NCBI GenBank assembly: GCA_018066285.1
Contig: JAGHRS010000006.1
Coordinates: forward strand, 1 to 64,000
Reading direction: 5' to 3'
Source of the DNA: Candidatus Treponema caballi
Lineage (GTDB): Bacteria > Spirochaetota > Spirochaetia > Treponematales > Treponemataceae
DNA length: 64,000 nt
The notes under the pieces were generated by a model. It saw nothing but the letters and a program-made list of their open reading frames with translations, was not told the origin of the DNA and did not search any database. How positions within the stretch are numbered: the stretch's first letter is position 1; each line of letters opens with the position of its first letter. Shown here piece by piece: positions 3,610 through 30,650 of this stretch. The position numbers and the translations under genes were made by a program.

Positions 3610-4647
3610 TCAGTTCTTCACCGTATATTCATATTTGAGTTCAATATGTGCTTCATTGCTTGATGTGAAGGCGTGTGAACCTTTTTCAGCATCAACAAGA
3701 GTGAAATACGTGTATTTAGTTTTTGCCGGATGAACGGCAGCATCAAGAGCCGTAAGTCCCGGATTTGAAATTGCTCCTGGCGGTAATCCTTCATATTTGT
3801 ATGTATTATAAGGATTATCTATCTGTGTATCAGCACGGGTTACCTTTGCAGGATGCGGAAGATCCATGATGTCTGTAATGATATATACAACGGTTGCGCA
3901 GGAATATAAGCCCCAGGAATGGCCGCGTTCAATGGTGTTGAGGCGGTTGGTGAAAACACTTGCAATCAGTGGTGCTTCTTCTGCGACACGGTATTCTTTC
4001 TCAACGATTGAAGCAAGGCGTACTGCATAGAAAAGCTCATCCGGTGTAAGGTCGGACATGTCTGGAATGGTGGTTATTTTCTCATAGAACGTGTCTGCGA
4101 GAATGCGGACGACTCTTTCTGCAGTCATACCATAATCAAGGAAATAGGTATCAGGGAAGAGATAGCCTTCAAAAGATGAAGCGGGAATTGCATATTCATC
4201 AAGAAGTGTCTGGTCACTGCATGCCTTTATGAATGCGTCGCGTGATGTGACTCCTGCTTCTTCCATGAGTGTTCCAATCTGTTTGAGCGTATAGCCCTCA
4301 GGAATGCTGACACTTGTATGCTCCTGAACGCCTGATTCAAGAAGAGACAGGATCTCATCCGTTGACATGGCTGAGTTCACGCGGTATTTACCGGCTTTTA
4401 TAGTACATTTCTTAAATCGTACATAATAGTAAAAGACATCAGCTGATTTGATCATGCCGTTTTCCTCAAGTTTTCCCGCTACGGTGCGCGTTCCAGTCCC
4501 TGAAGGAATATCAAGCTGATACTCAGTTCCACTAGTATCAAACGGTTCAAGACATGATTTCAGATAGAGATATGCACCTCCAGCTGCACAGCAGAGAAGT
4601 AAAACAAAAACAAGGAGGATAATCAGAAATGACTTACTTTTTTTCAT
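3610..4647 (-). CDS. mltG: Endolytic peptidoglycan transglycosylase MltG (YceG family)
   Basis: MltG cleaves nascent glycan strands at the inner membrane and so sets peptidoglycan chain length. An N-terminal membrane anchor follows the start (MKKSKSFLIILLVFVLLLCC), then a LysM-like/YceG periplasmic region. The catalytic glutamate lies in LASIVEKEY, and the family motif YEGLPPGAISNPG is present near the C-terminus. The reading frame is open further upstream to a TTG (4671), but the ATG at 4647 directly precedes the membrane anchor and is preferred. It overlaps the end of the 64-codon gene by 14 bases, indicating translational coupling. It sits just upstream of dnaG. Confidence 0.93.
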   Translation of the reverse strand: MKKSKSFLIILLVFVLLLCCAAGGAYLYLKSCLEPFDTSGTEYQLDIPSGTGTRTVAGKLEENGMIKSADVFYYYVRFKKCTIKAGKYRVNSAMSTDEILSLLESGVQEHTSVSIPEGYTLKQIGTLMEEAGVTSRDAFIKACSDQTLLDEYAIPASSFEGYLFPDTYFLDYGMTAERVVRILADTFYEKITTIPDMSDLTPDELFYAVRLASIVEKEYRVAEEAPLIASVFTNRLNTIERGHSWGLYSCATVVYIITDIMDLPHPAKVTRADTQIDNPYNTYKYEGLPPGAISNPGLTALDAAVHPAKTKYTYFTLVDAEKGSHAFTSSNEAHIELKYEYTVKN

Positions 4648-4828
4648 TAAAAAAACCTGCGGCCTCTTCAAGGGTCATATTATTATAAAGCTCATTTTCC
4701 ATTTTCCGCTGGAAAAAAGCCATGGTATCGGAAAGTTCTGCTTCACTTTTCCTCAGAAGAACGACGAGTTCCTTCAGTTCATCAAGTGAAAAGGAATAAG
4801 TGCAGACCGGTTCCTGTTCCTGGGTCAT
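4634..4828 (-). CDS. Small conserved-looking protein between MBL hydrolase and mltG, function unknown
   Basis: This 64-residue acidic protein has no signal peptide or membrane segment and is predicted to be mostly helical. I recognise no domain. Support for it being real comes from context: its ATG overlaps the stop of the MBL gene, GGAG precedes it, and its 3' end overlaps the mltG start. It may be a small cytosolic protein co-produced with MltG. The function is not inferred. Confidence 0.7.
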   Translation of the reverse strand: MTQEQEPVCTYSFSLDELKELVVLLRKSEAELSDTMAFFQRKMENELYNNMTLEEAAGFFNEKK

Positions 4829-5763
4829 AGAGTAATCTCCATCCCCTCCGATGCTACAGATACTTCGGTCCGTACTTTTCTGTTATGGTTCATATACCAG
4901 TCAGCAGTCTTCAGGATTGTGTGAATCTTTTTATCATCATACACGGGATCATGATGGAAAAGGAACAGTTTCTTTACATTCATCGATGTTGCAAAATCTG
5001 TTGCATGGCTGAATGAAGAATGACCCCAGTTTTCTTTTGCTATAACCTCTTCTACTGTATATTGTGCATCAAGAATGAGAACGTCGGCATTTCCGAAGAA
5101 CTGATAGTTTGGATTGCCTTTTTTGTAATCATCCGGCTGCAGTTCCACATCTGTCGCATACACGATTTTATGGTCATCTTCCTTGAACAGATATGAATAG
5201 GAACCACCTGGATGATGCATGCGCTTGCATTCTATGATAGTTCCGTCTATCTCAAAAGGTTCCATCGGTTTTATGATATGGAAGAAAATATTCTTTGTGC
5301 ATGCACTTAACGGTACCGGGAAATATGGAGCTTCCATCTGGTCTGAAAGCAGCTGTTTTACGTTTTCTACCGGAGAATAGATGTGTATTTCTGTTTTGGG
5401 ATTAAAGATGGGGTCAAAGAAAGGAAGCCCCTGTATGTGATCCCAGTGAAAATGAGAGAATAAAATGTGATAGGTACGTGGATTTGCCCCGCCATACTTT
5501 TTTCCGAGAGCTCTCAGTCCTGAACCTGCATCAAGGATGAATACCGTACCCTTTTTGTTTACAAGCTCGACACATGCGGTATTGCCACCAACAGTTCCAT
5601 TAATTGTTTCTGGAAGAGTGTCGATGAATCGCTGTCGTGAATCTGCATCTTTAATGTCATCAGGACCAATACGCTGAACTACAGCTGAAATCTTGGAACG
5701 GATCTGCTGCGGGGTCAAAGGGGTTGGTAAAGAACCTCTTACTCCCCAGAACTGCATGTACAT
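4825..5763 (-). CDS. Metallo-beta-lactamase-fold hydrolase
   Basis: A metal-dependent hydrolase of the MBL superfamily (about 312 residues). The metal-binding HxHxDH motif is in FSHFHWDHIQGLP, with later acidic and histidine ligands in VYATDVELQPDD and FLFHHDP. The opening MQFWGVRGSLPTP is typical of a cytosolic subgroup often annotated as MBL-fold or cyclic-phosphodiesterase-like hydrolases, but the substrate cannot be told. The frame is open to 5799; the start at 5763 is chosen because GGGAG lies at normal spacing and the family sequence begins there. It follows the cysteine-cluster gene by 1 base and overlaps the next gene by 4 bases. Confidence 0.85.
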   Translation of the reverse strand: MYMQFWGVRGSLPTPLTPQQIRSKISAVVQRIGPDDIKDADSRQRFIDTLPETINGTVGGNTACVELVNKKGTVFILDAGSGLRALGKKYGGANPRTYHILFSHFHWDHIQGLPFFDPIFNPKTEIHIYSPVENVKQLLSDQMEAPYFPVPLSACTKNIFFHIIKPMEPFEIDGTIIECKRMHHPGGSYSYLFKEDDHKIVYATDVELQPDDYKKGNPNYQFFGNADVLILDAQYTVEEVIAKENWGHSSFSHATDFATSMNVKKLFLFHHDPVYDDKKIHTILKTADWYMNHNRKVRTEVSVASEGMEITL

Positions 5764-5764
5764 T

Positions 5765-6214
5765 TTAAATTTCTCCCTTCCTGAGGGGAACGTTGGCATT
5801 GTAAACTCTCATACAATGCTCAATTTCCTCTTTCCCATGAAGAGCACCCTGATTAATACCGGGACAGGACTTAGATTCTTCATCCCACATTTCCCTGGAT
5901 TTCATAAGGAAAGTCCAGAACGGATATGTTGAACACTGGAGCGGACGTGCCGGATAAGCCGTACAGCCGCCGTTTTTCCAGAAAATACAATCATAACCTG
6001 GTTTTTCCAGGAGACAAAGAACTTCTGTTCCATCGTAATAAGGAACAAACCTGCAGTATTTCTCAATGAACTGCTCTGAATTTAAATTAGCCCACTGAAG
6101 TAGTTTTGTCAAATCTGAGCGTGAAAGATATACATAGCCGGGTTCTGAACGACAGCAATGTGAACATTGCTGACACTGGAAATGAAGGCCCTTTTCATAG
6201 AATTTCTCTTCCAT
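5765..6214 (-). CDS. YkgJ-type cysteine-cluster protein (putative metal-binding)
   Basis: A 149-residue protein of the YkgJ/CxxCxxxCC family, thought to bind zinc or an iron-sulfur cluster. Visible motifs are CQQCSHCCRSEPGYVYLS near the N-terminus, then CLLEKPGYDC and the GGCTAYPARPLQCSTYPFW signature. The start at 6214 is preferred over the longer frame (6253) because GGAG lies 8 bases upstream and the longer frame runs through the tRNA terminator hairpin. It is the first gene of a tight run into the MBL hydrolase and mltG. The substrate is unknown; some relatives have been linked to protein or metal-cofactor chemistry. Confidence 0.85.
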   Translation of the reverse strand: MEEKFYEKGLHFQCQQCSHCCRSEPGYVYLSRSDLTKLLQWANLNSEQFIEKYCRFVPYYDGTEVLCLLEKPGYDCIFWKNGGCTAYPARPLQCSTYPFWTFLMKSREMWDEESKSCPGINQGALHGKEEIEHCMRVYNANVPLRKGEI

Positions 6215-21045: not shown

Positions 21046-21714
21046 CTACCGTTTATTTCTTTTCTTAGAAACACTATTATACAACAGATGTTTGATTTTG
21101 AAACTGATTTTGTTGGAAAAAGATATTTTTTGTATCCGTTTTGTGGGACATTTATTTGCAAGTTCAAGAGAAAGACTCATTGTTTCGGAACATAATCCAC
21201 AGTTCTGGCAACCAACAGCACAATTTTCGTTTTGTTTTATTCCTGTTGCAGAACACTGGATATAGTATTCTTTCTCGACAGGAACAAGCTGAATGATCTT
21301 TTGTGGGCATTTATCAACACATAAACCGCAACCAGTACAACTGTCAGTTATAATAGCCGTACTGTTGTGAATAATGATGGCTTTTTGCGGGCAATATGAT
21401 ACGCATGTTCCATAACCGAGACATCCATATTCACAGAATATTTCATTTTCGTATAATTCCTTGAAAAGACGACAATCTGTCATACGGTCATATTGAAGAC
21501 GCTTTTGTGAAATGTTACGTTCTGGGGAACAGCATACAACTGCCCGCATAATCTGTGTATCAGTATCTGCTATTTCTGGTTTTAACGGAAGAAACTCAGA
21601 TTCATCTTTAGAGATAAAAGAATCAGCCTTTATTTTGAAGCGCAGTATGAGAAGAACAAACAAGGCGCCGCAAGCGAAAAGAATTAACGGAAAAAGTTCA
21701 AGTGTCAGAGCCAT
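21046..21714 (-). CDS. rnfB: RnfB-like ferredoxin subunit, N-terminal Fe-S module missing
   Basis: RnfB normally takes electrons from ferredoxin into the Rnf complex. This 222-residue version has one N-terminal membrane helix and then joins the family directly at RAVVCCSPERN, skipping the CGxCGxxxC module that usually follows the anchor. The remaining clusters are CEYGCLGYGTCVSYCP and CTGCGLCVDKCP, plus a third set in CAVGCQNCGLC with a later CP. The C-terminus is strongly basic. Its ATG overlaps the rnfA stop by 1 base. It is last in the C-D-G-E-A-B chain and is followed by the GH57-like gene. Confidence 0.82.
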   Translation of the reverse strand: MALTLELFPLILFACGALFVLLILRFKIKADSFISKDESEFLPLKPEIADTDTQIMRAVVCCSPERNISQKRLQYDRMTDCRLFKELYENEIFCEYGCLGYGTCVSYCPQKAIIIHNSTAIITDSCTGCGLCVDKCPQKIIQLVPVEKEYYIQCSATGIKQNENCAVGCQNCGLCSETMSLSLELANKCPTKRIQKISFSNKISFKIKHLLYNSVSKKRNKR

Positions 21715-22271
21715 TATGCTACTCCCAGATTAAACCAAGAAACATTCAGCGAAAAGAGAACCAGCATTATTATTGCGATACTCAGGAAAATCAAAGCACC
21801 CTGTTTGAAATCAATCTGTTGCTGAGAGTAATGCAGTCTGCTTCGAATTGCATACAGAATCGGAAGTACCAGAAAGAAAGACAGACAGCATGATGTTCCG
21901 ATGATGATTGAATGTATCATATCTAATCCTTCATTTACTGCTATGAGGACAGAACAGATAGTAATGGATATTTCTTTTGTTTCGATATGGAAAATATATT
22001 CAAACAGCTTTTCTGTAAGAAGAGAAAAAATGTACGTGAACAGAATACAGACAAAAGGGAAAAGTTCCTGAAGTCTTGCTGGTACAAGGAAAAGAAGAGT
22101 AATTCCTCTGCAGACAAAAACTGAGATGCAAATGGTTATCACCATTCTAAACATCTGGAAGAGAACATTTTTGGGTTTATTGGAAAAAACAATGACACGT
22201 TTTAATCCAATACCGTAAACAAAGACTGCAGAAGAAAAAATCAGATATAAAAAAAGCGTATCAATAATCAT
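21714..22271 (-). CDS. rnfA: RnfA-like membrane subunit, one of two cluster cysteines lost
   Basis: A 185-residue integral membrane protein with about six helices. It matches RnfA in position, length and the C-terminal segment FKQGALIFLSIAIIM. In normal RnfA a cysteine in GLCPFMG near residue 25 and a second in TTNCAVLG help to hold a membrane [2Fe-2S] cluster with RnfE. Here the first motif reads GLKRVIVFS with no cysteine; the second is kept as TICSVLI (C106). It overlaps both neighbours by 1 base. The call rests on synteny plus topology, because sequence similarity is weak. Confidence 0.75.
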   Translation of the reverse strand: MIIDTLFLYLIFSSAVFVYGIGLKRVIVFSNKPKNVLFQMFRMVITICISVFVCRGITLLFLVPARLQELFPFVCILFTYIFSLLTEKLFEYIFHIETKEISITICSVLIAVNEGLDMIHSIIIGTSCCLSFFLVLPILYAIRSRLHYSQQQIDFKQGALIFLSIAIIMLVLFSLNVSWFNLGVA

Positions 22272-22876
22272 CAGTTTTTCCTCCGGTTTATTTCTACATG
22301 TCTTTCAATGAACGCGAAAATGGCAACAAGAACTGAGAGAATTACAAAAGCTCCAGGAATTGTTGCAAAGAAGAAAGTATAATCTGAAATCTGGCTTGAA
22401 AGAATCTTTATGACATGAATTCCTTTTTTCACCGGTAAAGATATTGATCCAAAAGCAAGCATTTCACGGATTATATAGAATATCAGGGCGAATCCGGTAA
22501 ATATTCCGGAAGCACTCATATTCTTTTTATATAGCATCTTTGGATTCATTTCTTTATCTGTAAGGATATATCCGAGAATGAAGGATGAAATGGGAATAAG
22601 ATAAAGATCAAAGCTTAATGTAAGTGCTGTAAGCGGAGAATACATTATAAGCAGTTGTTTACATAAAATGGTGATCGAATACAGAAAAACAAGGAGACAA
22701 ACAGGTTCGAGTTCTTCAATATCAAGTTTTCTTATGAGGAACTTTGCTGTCGTTCCAAGAAACATGACAATATTCATTATCAAAAGCATGATTATTCCGT
22801 ATGCAACACGTGCCGGAACAGGAATAACGACAGAAAGAAAGGCGGAAATGTACAGCAAGGCAACTTTCTTTTTCAT
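22271..22876 (-). CDS. rnfE: RnfE-like membrane subunit, both cluster cysteines lost
   Basis: A 201-residue membrane protein with about six helices in the rnfE position of the operon. Canonical RnfE has GLCPLLAV in its first helix and VTNCIVVGR in a central helix; the corresponding stretches here are LLYISAFLSVV and LIPISSFILGY, without cysteine. FYIIREMLAFGSISLP resembles the LREIIGNGTL region of RnfE, which supports the assignment. It overlaps rnfG and rnfA by 1 base each. With RnfA keeping a single cysteine, a membrane [2Fe-2S] cluster of the usual kind cannot be built. Confidence 0.72.
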   Translation of the reverse strand: MKKKVALLYISAFLSVVIPVPARVAYGIIMLLIMNIVMFLGTTAKFLIRKLDIEELEPVCLLVFLYSITILCKQLLIMYSPLTALTLSFDLYLIPISSFILGYILTDKEMNPKMLYKKNMSASGIFTGFALIFYIIREMLAFGSISLPVKKGIHVIKILSSQISDYTFFFATIPGAFVILSVLVAIFAFIERHVEINRRKN

Positions 22877-23343
22877 TATCTGGCCTCCCCTATAATTTGA
22901 GGAATACGGTTTTTCCAGTAATCAATCTGACGATATGCTGTTCCAAACCAGGGGAAAGAATCATCGTACATCTTGTCATCACTGATTATTCCAAGATATG
23001 AAAATGCTTTTTCTGAAGGCTTTCTGACATAAAGAGCAGCGGCAGGACCAGCAATTCCGGTGATACGGACTAAAACTGCATAACCATATAACTCTTCTGA
23101 TTCAGAAATCTTATATGCCGCTGCAGAAACGCTTAATGGCTGTTCAATCTGGATTGCATCTCCAACGATCAGTGTTTCTTCAGGATAACATGCAGTAATA
23201 GTGTTCTGTATCTGTTCGCGTAATCCGAGAGTCCATGCTTTTCTCGAAAGAACAGTACTCAGAGTCAGCAGGAGAAACAAGGTAAAAAATATGAGACAGA
23301 TATATCCAAATTTTTTCAGAGTTGTTTTCAATGATGCATTCAT
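22876..23343 (-). CDS. rnfG: RnfG-like subunit lacking the flavinylation motif
   Basis: A 155-residue protein with one N-terminal membrane helix (about residues 12-30) and an extracytoplasmic domain. Its place between rnfD and rnfE and the segment GYAVLVRITGIAGPAAALYV match RnfG. Canonical RnfG is about 200 residues long and ends with a (S/T)GAT motif that carries covalent FMN. Here the chain stops after a YWKNRIPQIIG segment, before that motif would occur, and no SGAT/TGAT is present anywhere. The stop overlaps the next start codon by 1 base, so there is no room for a lost C-terminus in another frame. Confidence 0.75.
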   Translation of the reverse strand: MNASLKTTLKKFGYICLIFFTLFLLLTLSTVLSRKAWTLGLREQIQNTITACYPEETLIVGDAIQIEQPLSVSAAAYKISESEELYGYAVLVRITGIAGPAAALYVRKPSEKAFSYLGIISDDKMYDDSFPWFGTAYRQIDYWKNRIPQIIGEAR

Positions 23344-24383
23344 TCTTCAACCTTCTGTTTTTTATTAATGAAGAACAGAATAATCCAGTCTTCAATTAAT
23401 TGAATGACAGGAGAGAAAATATTCACTATGAGTATTACGAACATAGTTCCAATATTTCCAGTACCGCATCCATTAAGAAGAAAAGCAAAAATACCTGCCA
23501 AAGCAGAATATATGCATTTTCCCACTATTGTCATGGGAGTTGTGCCACCCCATGGAAGTATGAAGAATGCAGCAACAAAAGTTCCGCTGGTACACAAAGC
23601 AAGAATAATATCGCCTTCAAACCATATATTTCCATAAGGTACAAGACCGAAAATGCGTACAGCCAGAGAATAGGTGAAAAGATAGACAAATGGTATAAGC
23701 CATTCTGTAAGGTTGAATGAAATCAGATAAATAGTGGAAAGAAGAGTAAGAAGATTGAATCGTAAAGCAGGAATACAATTCCCTGTATCCCAGAACAACG
23801 AAACGTATCCATCTGGAAGGACAACTCCAGCATAATGGAATAATTTTGTATTCAGGAAAGAAGTCACATCTGCATCAAATGTGCATAGAGGCATTTTTCC
23901 CTGATTAATGAGTCTTGTTAAAGTATCTGTACCTTGCAGCAGTGATGCATCGACAAGAGATTTAGGGAAATCTGAATAGCCAAACAGATACAGTACTATG
24001 ACGGTAACAGCTGCAGGATTTGCCCATGACTGTGCAAATCCACCGAAAGCGTATTTTGCCAGGAGGAGCGTTATAAAAATAAGGACAAACGCCTTGAACG
24101 GAGAATACGTTGACGGAATGAACATTCCTATAAGTAACCCCTGCAATACGACAGAAGATGTAAGTTTGTAAGAATTATTGCGAACAAATGAATCAACTAT
24201 ATCAGCAATAATGGAAGCAACAATTGCTGTTCCTGCAAGAATAAGGGATGAAATGTTTTGAGTAAGGAACAACATGATGAGCTGCGGTACAAAAAGAATA
24301 ATTACGGCTTTACAGCTCTGTCCTACTGATGGTACTGAATAACAGAATGGCGCAAGTGTCAGCTGTTCAAAACTTTTTTTCAT
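23340..24383 (-). CDS. rnfD: RnfD-like membrane subunit with degenerate flavinylation site
   Basis: A 347-residue membrane protein with about nine to ten helices, the usual RnfD/NqrB size. LLLAKYAFGGFAQSWANPAA (residues 107-125) matches the family segment around GGLGQNPFNPA, and the C-terminal GTFVAAFFIL matches the GATMLGAFFIL region. The loop that should carry covalent FMN on a threonine (D-G-x-S-G/Q-A-T-P-L) reads VDASLLQGTDTL (144-155): a threonine is nearby, but the consensus is broken and two residues are inserted. It overlaps rnfC and rnfG by 4 bases each. Confidence 0.83.
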   Translation of the reverse strand: MKKSFEQLTLAPFCYSVPSVGQSCKAVIILFVPQLIMLFLTQNISSLILAGTAIVASIIADIVDSFVRNNSYKLTSSVVLQGLLIGMFIPSTYSPFKAFVLIFITLLLAKYAFGGFAQSWANPAAVTVIVLYLFGYSDFPKSLVDASLLQGTDTLTRLINQGKMPLCTFDADVTSFLNTKLFHYAGVVLPDGYVSLFWDTGNCIPALRFNLLTLLSTIYLISFNLTEWLIPFVYLFTYSLAVRIFGLVPYGNIWFEGDIILALCTSGTFVAAFFILPWGGTTPMTIVGKCIYSALAGIFAFLLNGCGTGNIGTMFVILIVNIFSPVIQLIEDWIILFFINKKQKVEE

Positions 24384-25666
24384 TTAATACCACCTTTAAG
24401 AAGTGAAATTGTCTGTGCAAGAGGAAGTCTTGCAGGACAAGCTGTATCACAAACACCACATTCAGTACATTCTGAGGCCATGTCAATAATCTTCTGATTT
24501 GTTTCAGTATGGAAATAATAATATGAGAACAATTTATCGACCTGTATCTTCTTGGGGCATGATCTGTGACAATTTCCGCATCTGATACAGTTTACCTGTT
24601 TCTGGAATGGTATTATTTTCCTTGGAAGGAACGTCACAGATTTCAGATCTGCTGTTACCGGTGTATCAAGATCTGATACAGCAGTTCCTTTTATAAGTCC
24701 ATTAGTTACGATTTTGTAGACTGACTGCTTGAAACCACCACATTCTTCAACAAGTTTTCTTATAGGAGTTCCTACACGCACTCTGAATATACGTTCCGAA
24801 ACAAGTGGAGAACCTGAAAACTGAACATATTTTTCAAGAACAGGCTTGTTCAAAGCAACAGCTTCATAAGTTGTAAATGCTGCTTCTGCATCAATTGCTA
24901 TCATTTCGTCAAAAACGCACTTATTTTTATTAAGGAGCATTTTGAGTTCACGATAACCGCCAGAAGGATATATATCTGTTGCAGCCTTATATACAAACCA
25001 TTCATCGCTCATACTCTGACAGAAATAGCTTTTTACTTTTTCGGTAACTTCTTTGCTTTTCCCTGAAACAATAAATGCTATTTTATGTAGTGCTATTGAA
25101 CGCGCAACAATTGCAGCTCCCTCAATAATCTGGTCAAGCTTTCTTTCTGAAAGGAATTCTGCAGTCCGTACGGTAGGATCTGAATCAAACAGGCGTACAA
25201 CCAGTATTGAATCACGAGAGATGTCTCTTTTTTCAGAAAAAACCTTAAGCATGGATGCCATGGAACGTGTTTTTTCAAATGTACTTATTACGCCTTTGTC
25301 GTACATCAGTGACCAGATATCTGCAGCTGAATACTTTCTCCAGTCTGTAACAGGAAGGTTTCGTCCAAGATATGAAAAACTACCGTCTGTACGGATTATA
25401 AGCGCATTTGTTTTCTTTCCATTAGGAATAGAAACCGTTCTGTATCCTGTAACAATTCCAGGAACAGTTGAATGTATTGCAGATGATGATTTAGTATTCT
25501 GAGCTATTATTTCGCCTTCAGAAACCCGTGTGTTCTCGGCAACTTTAGAAGTACATAACTCTCCATCAGCATTTTTCAGCGGAATTATTACAAAAGGAGG
25601 AATATATGCATCAACGAGATCTTTAAATTGAGGAAAATCGCAATGCAGTTTTTGAATACTTATCAT
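24380..25666 (-). CDS. rnfC: RnfC-like Fe-S subunit without the FMN/NADH-binding motif
   Basis: RnfC normally oxidises or reduces NAD with bound FMN and two [4Fe-4S] clusters. The 428-residue protein keeps the N-terminal barrel (VSEGEIIAQ), YPSGG at 233-237, GTPIRKL at 299-305 and both clusters (C360, C363, C366, C370 and C400, C403, C406, C410). The Gly-rich nucleotide loop of the family (GLGGAGFPTxxKL) is replaced by GVISTFEKTRSMASML (125-140), and NGAECEPYLTAD is replaced by VVRLFDSDPTVRTAE (156-170). It overlaps the unknown membrane gene and rnfD by 4 bases each. NAD chemistry looks unlikely. Confidence 0.85.
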   Translation of the reverse strand: MISIQKLHCDFPQFKDLVDAYIPPFVIIPLKNADGELCTSKVAENTRVSEGEIIAQNTKSSSAIHSTVPGIVTGYRTVSIPNGKKTNALIIRTDGSFSYLGRNLPVTDWRKYSAADIWSLMYDKGVISTFEKTRSMASMLKVFSEKRDISRDSILVVRLFDSDPTVRTAEFLSERKLDQIIEGAAIVARSIALHKIAFIVSGKSKEVTEKVKSYFCQSMSDEWFVYKAATDIYPSGGYRELKMLLNKNKCVFDEMIAIDAEAAFTTYEAVALNKPVLEKYVQFSGSPLVSERIFRVRVGTPIRKLVEECGGFKQSVYKIVTNGLIKGTAVSDLDTPVTADLKSVTFLPRKIIPFQKQVNCIRCGNCHRSCPKKIQVDKLFSYYYFHTETNQKIIDMASECTECGVCDTACPARLPLAQTISLLKGGIK

Positions 25667-27587: not shown

Positions 27588-27593
27588 TTGAAT

Positions 27594-28598
27594 ATGGAAT
27601 TTGTGCAATATCGCAGTGGAATGGATGATGAAGGACGTCGTCTTGATAAGGTGCTGCGCATTCTTTTTCCAGATACTCCCCTTTCAAATTTTTACAGTTA
27701 CATCCGCAAAGGTTTAATCCGTATCAACGATAAGAAAACGAAGCAGGATTACCATATTGTCTGTGGTGATATGATTTGTGTTGCCAGATTCCTTAATCTG
27801 AGCAGGCGCAATGAAACAACTGCAAAAACATCAGAATCCCTTCAGCAGCAAGATGAAATCCCCTGTGTCTTCTGTAATGAGCATATCCTTATCCTTAACA
27901 AACCTTATGATATTCCAGTTCACGAAACAGGATCCTATAAAGGAATTACACTTAATCAAATTGTTCTGAAAAAATATCCGGGAACTGGTAATTCCCTTGC
28001 TTTTACGCCAGGACCACTCCACCGTCTGGACAGAAAAACAACCGGTTTAATCTGCTTTTCCCAAAGCATTGAAGGTGCAAGACAGTTTACAGAACTTCTT
28101 AAAAAGCATGAAATCAGGAAGACGTACCTGACCATAATAGACGGCCGTCTTACAGATGATCTGCTTTTTTCGGATATGCTTTCAAAAGCTGAAACTTCAG
28201 ACAAGAGCGCATTTTACACGATGATTGTTACAGATGAAAAAGAAACTGCGCCAGAAAATGCTAAAAAAGCGATAACAAAGATACATCCTGTGGCATCAGG
28301 CTTTTACGAAAAAAAAGCGGTTACTCTTGCAGAAGTAACAATTGAAACAGGAAGGACTCATCAGATTAGAAGCCAGTGTGCTTCTCACGGATATCCGCTT
28401 TTTGGTGATTCTGCTTATGGAGGGACTCGGTATTCATGCCTCTTCCTACATGCATGGAAATTAGACATACAAAAACCTAATGCCTTGGGTTTGCCAGGCA
28501 GTATTTCATCTCCTCTTCCGGCAAGATTCTGTGAGTTCATAAAAAAATACTTGCCCGCTGTAGATATATCTCTATATAATCAGAGTCTGGAACTATGA
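27594..28598 (+). CDS. RluA-family 23S rRNA pseudouridine synthase (RluC/RluD type)
   Basis: A 334-residue enzyme that isomerises uridine to pseudouridine in rRNA. An S4-like RNA-binding domain comes first (GRRLDKVLRILFPDTPLSNF), followed by the catalytic domain with the signature PGPLHRLDRKTTGL, whose aspartate is the catalytic residue, and EVTIETGRTHQIRSQCASHG. The frame can begin at a TTG (27588), but the ATG at 27594 is preferred; neither has a ribosome binding site. The stop overlaps the next gene by 4 bases. The exact uridine targeted is not decidable here. Confidence 0.93.
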   Translation: MEFVQYRSGMDDEGRRLDKVLRILFPDTPLSNFYSYIRKGLIRINDKKTKQDYHIVCGDMICVARFLNLSRRNETTAKTSESLQQQDEIPCVFCNEHILILNKPYDIPVHETGSYKGITLNQIVLKKYPGTGNSLAFTPGPLHRLDRKTTGLICFSQSIEGARQFTELLKKHEIRKTYLTIIDGRLTDDLLFSDMLSKAETSDKSAFYTMIVTDEKETAPENAKKAITKIHPVASGFYEKKAVTLAEVTIETGRTHQIRSQCASHGYPLFGDSAYGGTRYSCLFLHAWKLDIQKPNALGLPGSISSPLPARFCEFIKKYLPAVDISLYNQSLEL

Positions 28599-29452
28599 AT
28601 ATTCTCAACAACATTGTCTGGAAATTTAAGGGTGTCACTGTATATGCCCTGGTTGGTGAAAGTGGCACAGGAAAAAGTTTCAGGGCAAAACTGCTTGCAC
28701 AGAAATACGGTATTGATGTCATCATAGATGACGGTCTTCTCATTCAGGATGACAAAATCATTGCAGGACACTCAGCAAAAAGGGAATCAACTTTCCTTGC
28801 TGCAGTCCGTGTTGCTCTTTTTGATGATAAAGAAGACCGTGATGCTGTTGCACGTGTACTACAGAAAAAGAAAAGCGTTAAGAAAATCCTCATACTCGGA
28901 ACATCCGAAAAGATGGTAAATAAGATAGCACTCCGTCTTCAGCTTCCGGCACCGTCTAAAATCATCAAGATTGATGAGATAGCAACACAGGAAGAGATTG
29001 ATCTTGCAATACGTTCGCGAAGGATTGAGGGAAAGCATGTAATTCCGGTTCCGGCAATTGAAATAAAGAGAAGCTATCCGCAGATATTCTATAATACAGT
29101 AAAGGTCTTTCTCCGTCGCAAAAACAAAACACCTGATTCAAAGATTTACGAAAAGTCAGTTGTCCGTCCGGAGTTTTCCAAAAAAGGAAGGATTGAAATC
29201 TCTGAAGCAGCCCTTTCTCAGATGGTTATGCATTGTGTAAGCGAGTTTGACAAGCAGATCCGCGTTAAGAAACTGACAATCAAGACAGATACCCGTGGTT
29301 ACCGGTTCATCATCACTATTGATGTACCTTTCGGCATGCAGCTTACCGGTACCATCCATACCATGCAGAAATATATAATCGACAATATTGAACGTTATAC
29401 CGGTATTCTGATTGAGGAAGTAAGCATCGTTATTGATAAAATCATGCAGTAG
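28595..29452 (+). CDS. P-loop NTPase fused to an Asp23/Gls24-like domain
   Basis: A 285-residue protein with an unusual domain pair. Residues 15-130 form a P-loop module with Walker A GESGTGKS (21-28) and a possible Walker B at KKILILGTSE. After a basic middle segment (150-200), residues 205-283 resemble the Asp23/Gls24/Alx family: two helices around an RVKKLTIKTDTRGYRF strand segment and a closing IERYTGILIEEVSIVI. Asp23 proteins are cell-envelope or stress associated in Gram-positives. The nucleotide may be ATP or GTP. It is coupled by a 4-base overlap to the RluA gene and overlaps the convergent pcnB by 11 bases. Confidence 0.75.
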   Translation: MNILNNIVWKFKGVTVYALVGESGTGKSFRAKLLAQKYGIDVIIDDGLLIQDDKIIAGHSAKRESTFLAAVRVALFDDKEDRDAVARVLQKKKSVKKILILGTSEKMVNKIALRLQLPAPSKIIKIDEIATQEEIDLAIRSRRIEGKHVIPVPAIEIKRSYPQIFYNTVKVFLRRKNKTPDSKIYEKSVVRPEFSKKGRIEISEAALSQMVMHCVSEFDKQIRVKKLTIKTDTRGYRFIITIDVPFGMQLTGTIHTMQKYIIDNIERYTGILIEEVSIVIDKIMQ

Positions 29453-30650
29453 GTACAGCTGCTGAGGCTGCAGATGTTGCTGGAATAACAACGTGTTCTG
29501 CTTTCTGGGCGGCAGTTTTTGCTGCATCAGATCTTTTCGGTCTTCTTCTTGGTGCAGCTTTCTTTACCCTCTTTTCACCTGCATTTTTAGGGATGCGGAT
29601 TGTGACGCCAAGCATCTTAAGAGTTTCCCGTATGGCAAACTCAAGTTCAGTACGCTGTGGGTTCATTGGAAGAACGAAATTCCTGCACTGAGCCCATGTC
29701 TTTGAGTAAAGTTCTCCAGCCTGTGATGATTCTGCCTCTTTTTTCCAGTCAGTAAGATTGTCTATAAAGTCATATATGATGTAGACAAGCTTTCTTCCAA
29801 CACGTACATCCGGAGTCACAGCAACGAGTGCATCAAGGTCACGGAGATGCTTGAGATAGTTTTCCTCGAAAGACTGCTTTTCGTACATCATGCCTGTAGC
29901 ACCTGGCTGCAGATACATGTACAGATCAGTTTCAAGAGCGAGGTTTACAATGTCATACGAGTGACCAGAGTTTATTATTTTAAGGAGTTCTTCTGTAAGT
30001 CGTGATGGAGAAACCTGTGAAAGCAGTTTTGCTGATTTACAGATTTTGCGCTTGAGCTGATGAGGAAGCTTGAATCCTGTTGTGGCTGCATATTTTATGG
30101 CTCTGAGCATACGGACAGGGTCTTCGACAAATATCGTCCTGAGTGGAATAACAGGTTTAATAATGCCTTCCCGAATATCCTTTACGCCATTTACATAATC
30201 AATAACCTGCTCTTTAAGCGGATCATAATAAAGCGCATTTAAAGTGAAATCGCGGCGCATGACATCTTCATCGATTGTTCCAAAACTGTTTCCCACTGTT
30301 CCGTCACAGATTGAGCGGAATGTGCTTACTTCAAATATTTTGGTTCCGAAGAAAATGTGGACGAGTCTGAAGCGTTTTCCTATGATGCGTGAATTTCTGA
30401 AAAGCTTCTTTATGCGGGATGGTGTTGCATCCGTTACTATATCAAAATCTTTTGGTGTATTTCCGACAATGAGGTCACGGACTGCACCGCCTACTATGTA
30501 AGCGGTGTAGCCATATTCTTTTAACTGAGTAATGACGCGTATTGCGTCAGGATCTATCTTTTCAAAAGGAATGCCGTGTTCTTCTTTTGTATATACGACA
30601 GCTTTTTTTACAGGTTTTCCGTTTTTATCCTGCGAATATCTTATAAGCAC
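29442..30650 (-). CDS. pcnB: Poly(A) polymerase I / CCA-type nucleotidyltransferase
   Basis: A 402-residue class II nucleotidyltransferase. The catalytic head has YIVGGAVRDLIVGNTPKDFD with the two metal-binding aspartates, followed by IGKRFRLVHIFFG, which matches the PcnB flavour of the family, and RRDFTLNALYYDP. The C-terminus is basic (RVKKAAPRRRPKRSD), as in poly(A) polymerases. PcnB adds poly(A) tails that promote RNA decay. Since both tRNAs here lack an encoded CCA, a CCA-adding role should be kept in mind. The 3' end overlaps the convergent Asp23-fusion gene by 11 bases. Confidence 0.88.
   Translation of the reverse strand: MLIRYSQDKNGKPVKKAVVYTKEEHGIPFEKIDPDAIRVITQLKEYGYTAYIVGGAVRDLIVGNTPKDFDIVTDATPSRIKKLFRNSRIIGKRFRLVHIFFGTKIFEVSTFRSICDGTVGNSFGTIDEDVMRRDFTLNALYYDPLKEQVIDYVNGVKDIREGIIKPVIPLRTIFVEDPVRMLRAIKYAATTGFKLPHQLKRKICKSAKLLSQVSPSRLTEELLKIINSGHSYDIVNLALETDLYMYLQPGATGMMYEKQSFEENYLKHLRDLDALVAVTPDVRVGRKLVYIIYDFIDNLTDWKKEAESSQAGELYSKTWAQCRNFVLPMNPQRTELEFAIRETLKMLGVTIRIPKNAGEKRVKKAAPRRRPKRSDAAKTAAQKAEHVVIPATSAASAAVPTA

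Follow-up and report, generated by a model that had tools for sequence, protein, structure and literature searches.

Asp23 is a small protein module known mainly from Gram-positive bacteria, and Staphylococcus aureus Asp23 and Bacillus subtilis YqhY and YloU are short stand-alone proteins. According to passages of PMC6954212, S. aureus Asp23, which assembles into filaments in vitro and is tethered to the membrane by AmaP, acts in envelope homeostasis, its molecular function being described there as still unclear. Passages of PMC5437119 link B. subtilis YqhY to acetyl-CoA carboxylase (ACCase) via suppressor mutations, place the yqhY gene behind accBC, and describe the family, as a description rather than a definition, as having at least two copies per genome. 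We describe here a gene of Candidatus Treponema caballi whose 285-residue product carries an Asp23 domain behind a predicted nucleotide-binding P-loop domain, found in the window (the whole stretch of DNA analysed, 64,000 nucleotides, positions 1 to 64,000 of contig JAGHRS010000006.1). Both domains, their joint conservation and their invariant motifs are established, and we propose, as a tentative leading interpretation, that a kinase-like nucleotide-binding P-loop domain controls the assembly or docking of the Asp23 domain.

Two conserved domains in one chain

The features of the gene are listed below, with conservation counted over a family set of 41 members, cut at 75% identity, reaching down to 34% identity and including one Clostridia member. 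Strands are those of the two structure models described in the next section.

28595..29452, forward strand: P-loop plus Asp23 fusion gene, 285 amino acids, ATG start, stop codon included
28655..28678, forward strand: Walker A motif GESGTGKS, residues 21-28; Gx4GK[ST] in 41/41 members
28721..28744, forward strand: IIDDGLLI, residues 43-50, at the end of strand 2; D45, D46 and G47 in 41/41; strand 42-45 in both models
28763..28786, forward strand: AGHSAKRE motif, residues 57-64; G58, A61 and K62 in 41/41
28892..28906, forward strand: ILGTS, residues 100-104, at the end of strand 97-102 (a strand in both models); T103 and S104 in 41/41
29018..29062, forward strand: R142 and GKHVIPVPAIE (residues 146-156), end of the P-loop domain; R142, H148, P151 and E156 in 41/41
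29150..29170, forward strand: EKSVVRP, residues 186-192, conserved hinge ahead of the Asp23 domain; P192 in 41/41, E186 and K187 in 37/41
29180..29446, forward strand: Asp23 (PF03780) domain, residues 196-284, by profile, reciprocal hidden Markov model (HMM) and profile-profile tests

Across the 41 members 23 columns are invariant, five of them within Walker A (G21, G24, G26, K27 and S28) and others including the residues from D45 to E156 given as 41/41 above.

By sequence comparison the C-terminal part (about residues 196-284) is an Asp23 domain, an assignment that is modest on the window protein alone and strong once its relatives are included. On the full window protein PF03780 matches residues 217-283 (E 3.6e-4, 21.3 bits, with a cut-off of 28), and on the C-terminal 90 residues alone it scores 26.1 bits (E 1.2e-5); the same region draws matches, well short of their cut-offs, from the Asp23-related NCBIfam models AmaP (E 5e-4) and MMB_0454 (E 0.006), and no curated Asp23 threshold is passed by the window protein itself. 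Unlike the description of at least two copies in the passages of PMC5437119, the window's genome has one PF03780 match, at the fusion gene only (E 0.0017; none at E <= 0.001). Among the family members 37 of 41 have an Asp23 match at E <= 1 (best 2.3e-10) and four do not, and the Clostridia member exceeds the PF03780 cut-off with 30 bits. A six-frame PF03780 search of 296 Spirochaetota genomes at E <= 0.01 gave matches in 86, of which 73 fall at the C-terminus of the fusion gene, 12 in separate short open reading frames (ORFs) and one, short and weak, elsewhere. Twenty-eight of the 73 fusion loci exceed the cut-off, 12 of these only after neighbouring frame stretches were added, and at the same E-value no match to the fusion C-terminus was found in 57 of the 130 gene-bearing genomes, those listed including small genomes of family f6 and the genome G056.

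The relationship was also approached from the side of the family. An HMM of its C-terminal columns matches six stand-alone Asp23-like proteins, with E-values, each computed over the ORFs of one locus, of 3.2e-11, 4.7e-10 and, for the other four, 2.5e-8 to 6.2e-7. Profile-profile comparison of the C-terminal columns with these six proteins, which had been chosen by PF03780, gave a probability of 97.2% (E 4e-11, 95 columns), with controls of 0.5% for the column-reversed alignment and 0.2% for the family's own N-terminal half. A plain BLASTP alignment of the window domain with one of these stand-alone proteins scores weakly (E 9e-4, 27% over 44), and a PDB sequence search with one stand-alone Asp23 protein returned nothing at E <= 1. 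The model of residues 201-285 has an alpha-beta-beta-alpha-beta fold and aligns with the C-terminal domain of the cation diffusion facilitator (CDF) transporter MamM (Z 9.4, root-mean-square deviation (rmsd) 2.1 Å, 80 aligned, 14% identity); C-terminal domains of CDF transporters dimerise.

A first-pass annotation of this DNA had given the ORF at 28595-29452 and its two motifs at their correct coordinates, and its pairing of a Walker A module with an Asp23-like domain in one chain is borne out by the invariant Walker A and by the profile searches; profile support for Asp23 at residues 205-283 is present (PF03780 at 217-283, the 28 loci over cut-off and the profile-profile result). Its placing of this combination in a spirochaete was right but too narrow, the gene being class-wide and also full-length in one Clostridia bacterium. 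A single-sequence search found the gene in 130 of 296 Spirochaetota genomes, and a profile search matched 139, namely these 130 and nine weak matches (E 1e-5 to 6e-4); among the matches listed, 118 of the 130 gene-bearing genomes belong to the window's own class and 12 to other classes. G056, in which the Asp23 half is missing, is one of the 118. Direct search of that class, over genomes at least 90% complete, gave matches in 242 of 248, one of them weak (G400, E 5.3e-6), and the idea that every genome of the class has the gene was given up on this count. The six without a match are 90-99% complete (G387, G402, G409, G462, G465 and G492). G387 and G402 both belong to genus g184, where the absence may be a real loss. 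Closer relatives match in 94 of 98 cases, the misses being three genomes 63-81% complete and one 93% complete. Copy number is nearly always one (G232 has two), and in G237 the gene is split across two contigs.

Outside Spirochaetota one Bacillota record was sampled, WP_158648977.1 of Monoglobus pectinilyticus (Clostridia), which is full-length, 38.6% identical over 93% of the query, and has all 23 invariant residues. Its RefSeq name is 'Asp23/Gls24 family envelope stress response protein', and the fusion architecture is already in sequence databases under this generic name; similar proteins probably exist in other Clostridia. The neighbours at the M. pectinilyticus locus differ from those in the window, with rex upstream and a DNA glycosylase gene downstream. 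A viral or mobile origin was rejected, no relative having been found in viral_contigs, nor in phages with the Clostridia protein as query; a plasmid scan returned one record, the Clostridia one, on a 286-kb replicon. Searches of an open-access library turned up no title on the fusion, those by gene name having used BB0816 and TP0423, which may not be the right names, and in the passages of PMC12548448 that concern Asp23 the one mention is a citation of the YqhY paper. The family is widespread, conserved and apparently uncharacterised in the literature.

The P-loop half

Besides PF00004 (AAA; 23.6 bits, with a cut-off of 21.2), no Pfam or NCBIfam family reaches its cut-off in the window protein, kinase families included. 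PF00004 matches 38 of the 41 members at E <= 1, without a conserved Walker B DE, and other P-loop families score nearly as high in the window protein. The ATP-binding cassette signature [LY]SGG[QER] occurs in none of the 41 members, and the GTPase G4 motif [NT]KxD in one, where its position (residue 296) falls outside the P-loop domain. The ILGTS strand carries no conserved acid in the family set. P-loop kinases use an acid where strand 2 ends to activate or position the acceptor, and the D45-D46 pair lies at this kinase-like position; D45 and D46 are candidate catalytic acids. The spacing GESG.GKS...DD resembles that of HPr kinase, and PF07475 matches one of the 41 members (E 0.0017), but this assignment was dropped because the string GRGI, part of the HPr kinase signature, is absent from 41/41 members.

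We used AlphaFold to model residues 1-176 from an alignment of the window protein and 55 loci. The resulting N-domain model shows a small P-loop fold, with block means of the predicted local distance difference test (pLDDT) of 84-95 at residues 11-140 and under 60 beyond. In VIA-align the best match is the RNA kinase Clp1 (Z 7.3, rmsd 3.5 Å, 130 aligned), followed by adenylate kinases (Z 6.4 and below) and T4 polynucleotide kinase (Z 6.0), and in the model the domain appears weakly nearest to P-loop kinases, a leaning and no more. The whole-protein model has a pLDDT of 73.5 and a predicted template-modelling (TM) score of 0.48, with residues 144-187 mostly under 50; residues 148 onwards have low confidence in both models.

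Proposed working and alternatives

In the working that we favour, the N-terminal half (about residues 14-156), most like P-loop kinases in its modelled fold and with the invariant D45 and D46 at the end of strand 2, would bind nucleotide, and nucleotide turnover or phosphotransfer might follow in the P-loop domain. The nucleotide state would be relayed via the conserved GKHVIPVP...EKSVVRP stretch, and this relay would switch the assembly or partner binding of the Asp23 domain, with assembly as in S. aureus Asp23; the 90 C-terminal residues would most likely serve for assembly or docking. We place this working a little short of probable because we infer both the nucleotide binding and the coupling. 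It is more doubtful that the protein is a nucleotide-gated Asp23 scaffold, a polymer or platform switched by its built-in kinase-like domain and working in an envelope or RNA process that has nothing to do with fatty acid synthesis. The family is conserved across spirochaetes, including genomes of about 1 Mb, and no other Asp23 protein known to us carries its own energy input.

Several observations weigh against nucleotide control of the Asp23 domain. Nucleotide binding and activity are predictions from sequence and model, the N-domain model has no Foldseek match at E <= 0.001, and VIA-align scores of Z under 8 may reflect merely a common arrangement. The first-pass annotation had called the Asp23 module nucleotide-driven; the Walker A motif is invariant in 41/41, but a conserved Walker B was not found in the family sequences, hhhhDE occurring in 6 of 41 members near residue 72 and off the ILGTS strand. 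Contact between the domains is not predicted, because residues 144-187 are mostly of low confidence. Columns conserved at 90% or more number 38 of 131 in the N-domain versus 6 of 89 in the Asp23 domain, and given this much stronger conservation of the N-domain the Asp23 domain may be the less important half. Furthermore, in the 1.14-Mb genome G056 (locus L132, ORF 5083-5889) the P-loop half is kept and the Asp23 half is undetectable: this orthologue has all six tested N-domain and hinge motifs and is identical to the window protein at 103 of the 209 positions of their alignment (49%), beyond which 25 residues stand where the Asp23 domain would be. No Asp23 remnant was found in any frame of the 11 kb around the gene (best tblastn E 1.1; no HMM match). 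That G056 keeps the P-loop half without the Asp23 half suggests a separate function for the P-loop half.

The gene overlaps its neighbours on both sides.

27588..28598, forward strand: RluD-like pseudouridine synthase gene; PF00849 E 3.8e-28 (on L081, the same gene of the window's genome)
29442..30650, reverse strand: convergent gene, whose 3' end overlaps the fusion gene by 11 nt

We take the convergent gene to be a poly(A) polymerase or CCA-adding type nucleotidyltransferase, by its GGAVRD...DFDIVTDA motif rather than by a family search. The end of the RluD-like gene and the start of the fusion gene share 4 nt (ATGA), which suggests that their translation is coupled. In 67 of 120 loci an RluD-like gene is encoded on the same strand at -60 to 150 nt upstream, and in five more it is further off; these counts are over loci showing 1.1 kb or more of upstream sequence, a set that is redundant and contains the window's own copy. 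In a clustered set of 46 loci, not all of them long enough to show both flanks, an RluD-like gene is present in 27, a nucleotidyltransferase-like gene in 22 (on the opposite strand in 20), and a gene for a tetratricopeptide-repeat-type protein downstream in 16; other lineages have nearby genes that read, by sequence, as murC-, ispE/L25- or rpsP-rimM-trmD-like. Neighbours this mixed among lineages suggest that the gene is a housekeeping one and not part of a single operon. Upstream of the Treponema putidum orthologue (L061), 3702-4973 encodes an HtrA-like trypsin/PDZ protease in place of the RluD-like gene. Elsewhere in the window, 21046-25666 on the reverse strand is a tightly packed gene run, which we take, from reading its genes rather than from a family search, to be an Rnf-type electron transport operon.

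The strongest rival, though in our view an unlikely one, is an RNA- or ribosome-linked factor of Era-like build, with a P-loop domain and a KH-like alpha-beta domain, that acts in rRNA or tRNA maturation. The top two Foldseek matches of the whole model are Era GTPases (1wf3, E 1.5e-5; 7c1o, E 8.8e-5), the best N-domain match is the RNA kinase Clp1, and the neighbourhood adds the RluD-like gene directly upstream in 67 of 120 loci, the putative CCA/poly(A) enzyme, and, in single lineages, L25-like or rpsP-rimM-trmD-like genes, named by reading the sequence. However, the Era alignments have TM scores of 0.23-0.24 and an rmsd near 19 Å, so that separate pieces fit only and the two proteins are alike in domain order but not superposable. 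The single [NT]KxD among 41 members lies outside the P-loop domain, the KH-loop GxxG is found in 0/41 (columns of residues 240-258), the sequence puts the C-domain in Asp23, and the neighbourhood varies with lineage. Less likely again is an envelope-stress protein at the inner membrane, a reading prompted by the family name and by the first-pass annotation, for which the role of S. aureus Asp23 in envelope homeostasis (passages of PMC6954212) and a short N-terminal helix ahead of the P-loop domain, with an aromatic residue in 38 of 41 members and a median net charge of +2, can be cited. Against it, the window protein has no transmembrane segment (19-residue Kyte-Doolittle maximum 1.03; one of 41 members reaches 1.6), the helix gives a weak amphipathic signal (p < 0.05 against shuffles in 6 of 41 members, with a larger median moment in another helix of the proteins), and no AmaP-like partner appears among the PF03780 matches in the window's genome, on which the AmaP profile was not run. 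The N-terminal helix as a membrane anchor was rejected, its amphipathicity not being distinctive relative to shuffles and to six other helices of the same proteins.

A YqhY-like regulator of ACCase or fatty acid synthesis with an added nucleotide sensor is contradicted for this organism, and we consider it very improbable. In its favour, next to the B. subtilis link (passages of PMC5437119), Spirochaetota without the fusion have a stand-alone Asp23-like gene directly behind an accC-like gene, named by reading, in five of six loci (L133, L134, L149, L157 and L164), and at all six loci the next ORF, of about 190-205 amino acids, looks membrane-protein-like by eye; the full fusion occurs in none of 12 genomes with a stand-alone gene, which would fit replacement. 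Yet the window's genome (99.79% complete) keeps the Asp23 domain and has no match to the AccA, Carboxyl_trans or FabH C-domain profiles, which match in 6 to 12 of 14 control genomes. The AccA search covered 21 genomes and matched 10, three of them weakly (E 7e-11 to 5e-10). Of the 11 genomes without a match, 10, among them the window's, retain a C-terminal domain alignable to the family profile, although PF03780 itself misses it in several of those 10; the exception is G056. Because AccA-less genomes, the window's among them, keep this domain, the fusion's Asp23 domain seems not to need ACCase. Separately, since all three profiles are unmatched in a genome of this completeness, the window organism is probably unable to make fatty acids in the usual way. 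A link to fatty acid kinase, for which we take yloV to be FakA, was also considered. B. subtilis yloU adjoins yloV (passages of PMC5437119), and this link found no support, with Dak2 in one of 14 genomes (G147, which has the stand-alone Asp23 gene), DegV in 0 of 14, and neither in the window's genome. Finally, that the Asp23 match arose by chance and the C-terminal part is a lineage-specific domain is contradicted and scarcely credible: a window protein under every curated cut-off, 57 of 130 gene-bearing genomes without a PF03780 match and the weak BLASTP result would fit it, but 28 orthologous loci and the Clostridia member score above the cut-off, and the profile-profile probability stands far above both of its controls.

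Relation to known systems

The fusion is kept in an organism without detectable AccA, carboxyltransferase and FabH, which separates Asp23 function from the sole pathway tied to it, and the joining of Asp23 to a predicted nucleotide-binding domain across nearly a whole class gives a handle on a conserved spirochaete gene that is apparently unstudied. Like Era GTPases, the fusion has a P-loop domain and then a small alpha/beta domain, and it differs from them in lacking [NT]KxD in the P-loop domain and GxxG. Its C-domain, as modelled, shares the fold of the C-terminal domain of the CDF transporter MamM, a likeness of structure at 14% identity, in a protein without the transporter part. With P-loop kinases (Clp1, adenylate kinase, T4 polynucleotide kinase and gluconate kinase) the N-domain has in common the Walker A motif and, as modelled, a small alpha/beta fold, although kinase families stay under cut-off for the fusion protein and Z is at most 7.3. 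With the Asp23/Gls24 proteins (PF03780; S. aureus Asp23, B. subtilis YqhY and YloU) the fusion shares, by the sequence comparisons above, a homologous C-terminal domain of about 90 residues, which here forms the less conserved half of a chain and stands behind a P-loop domain.

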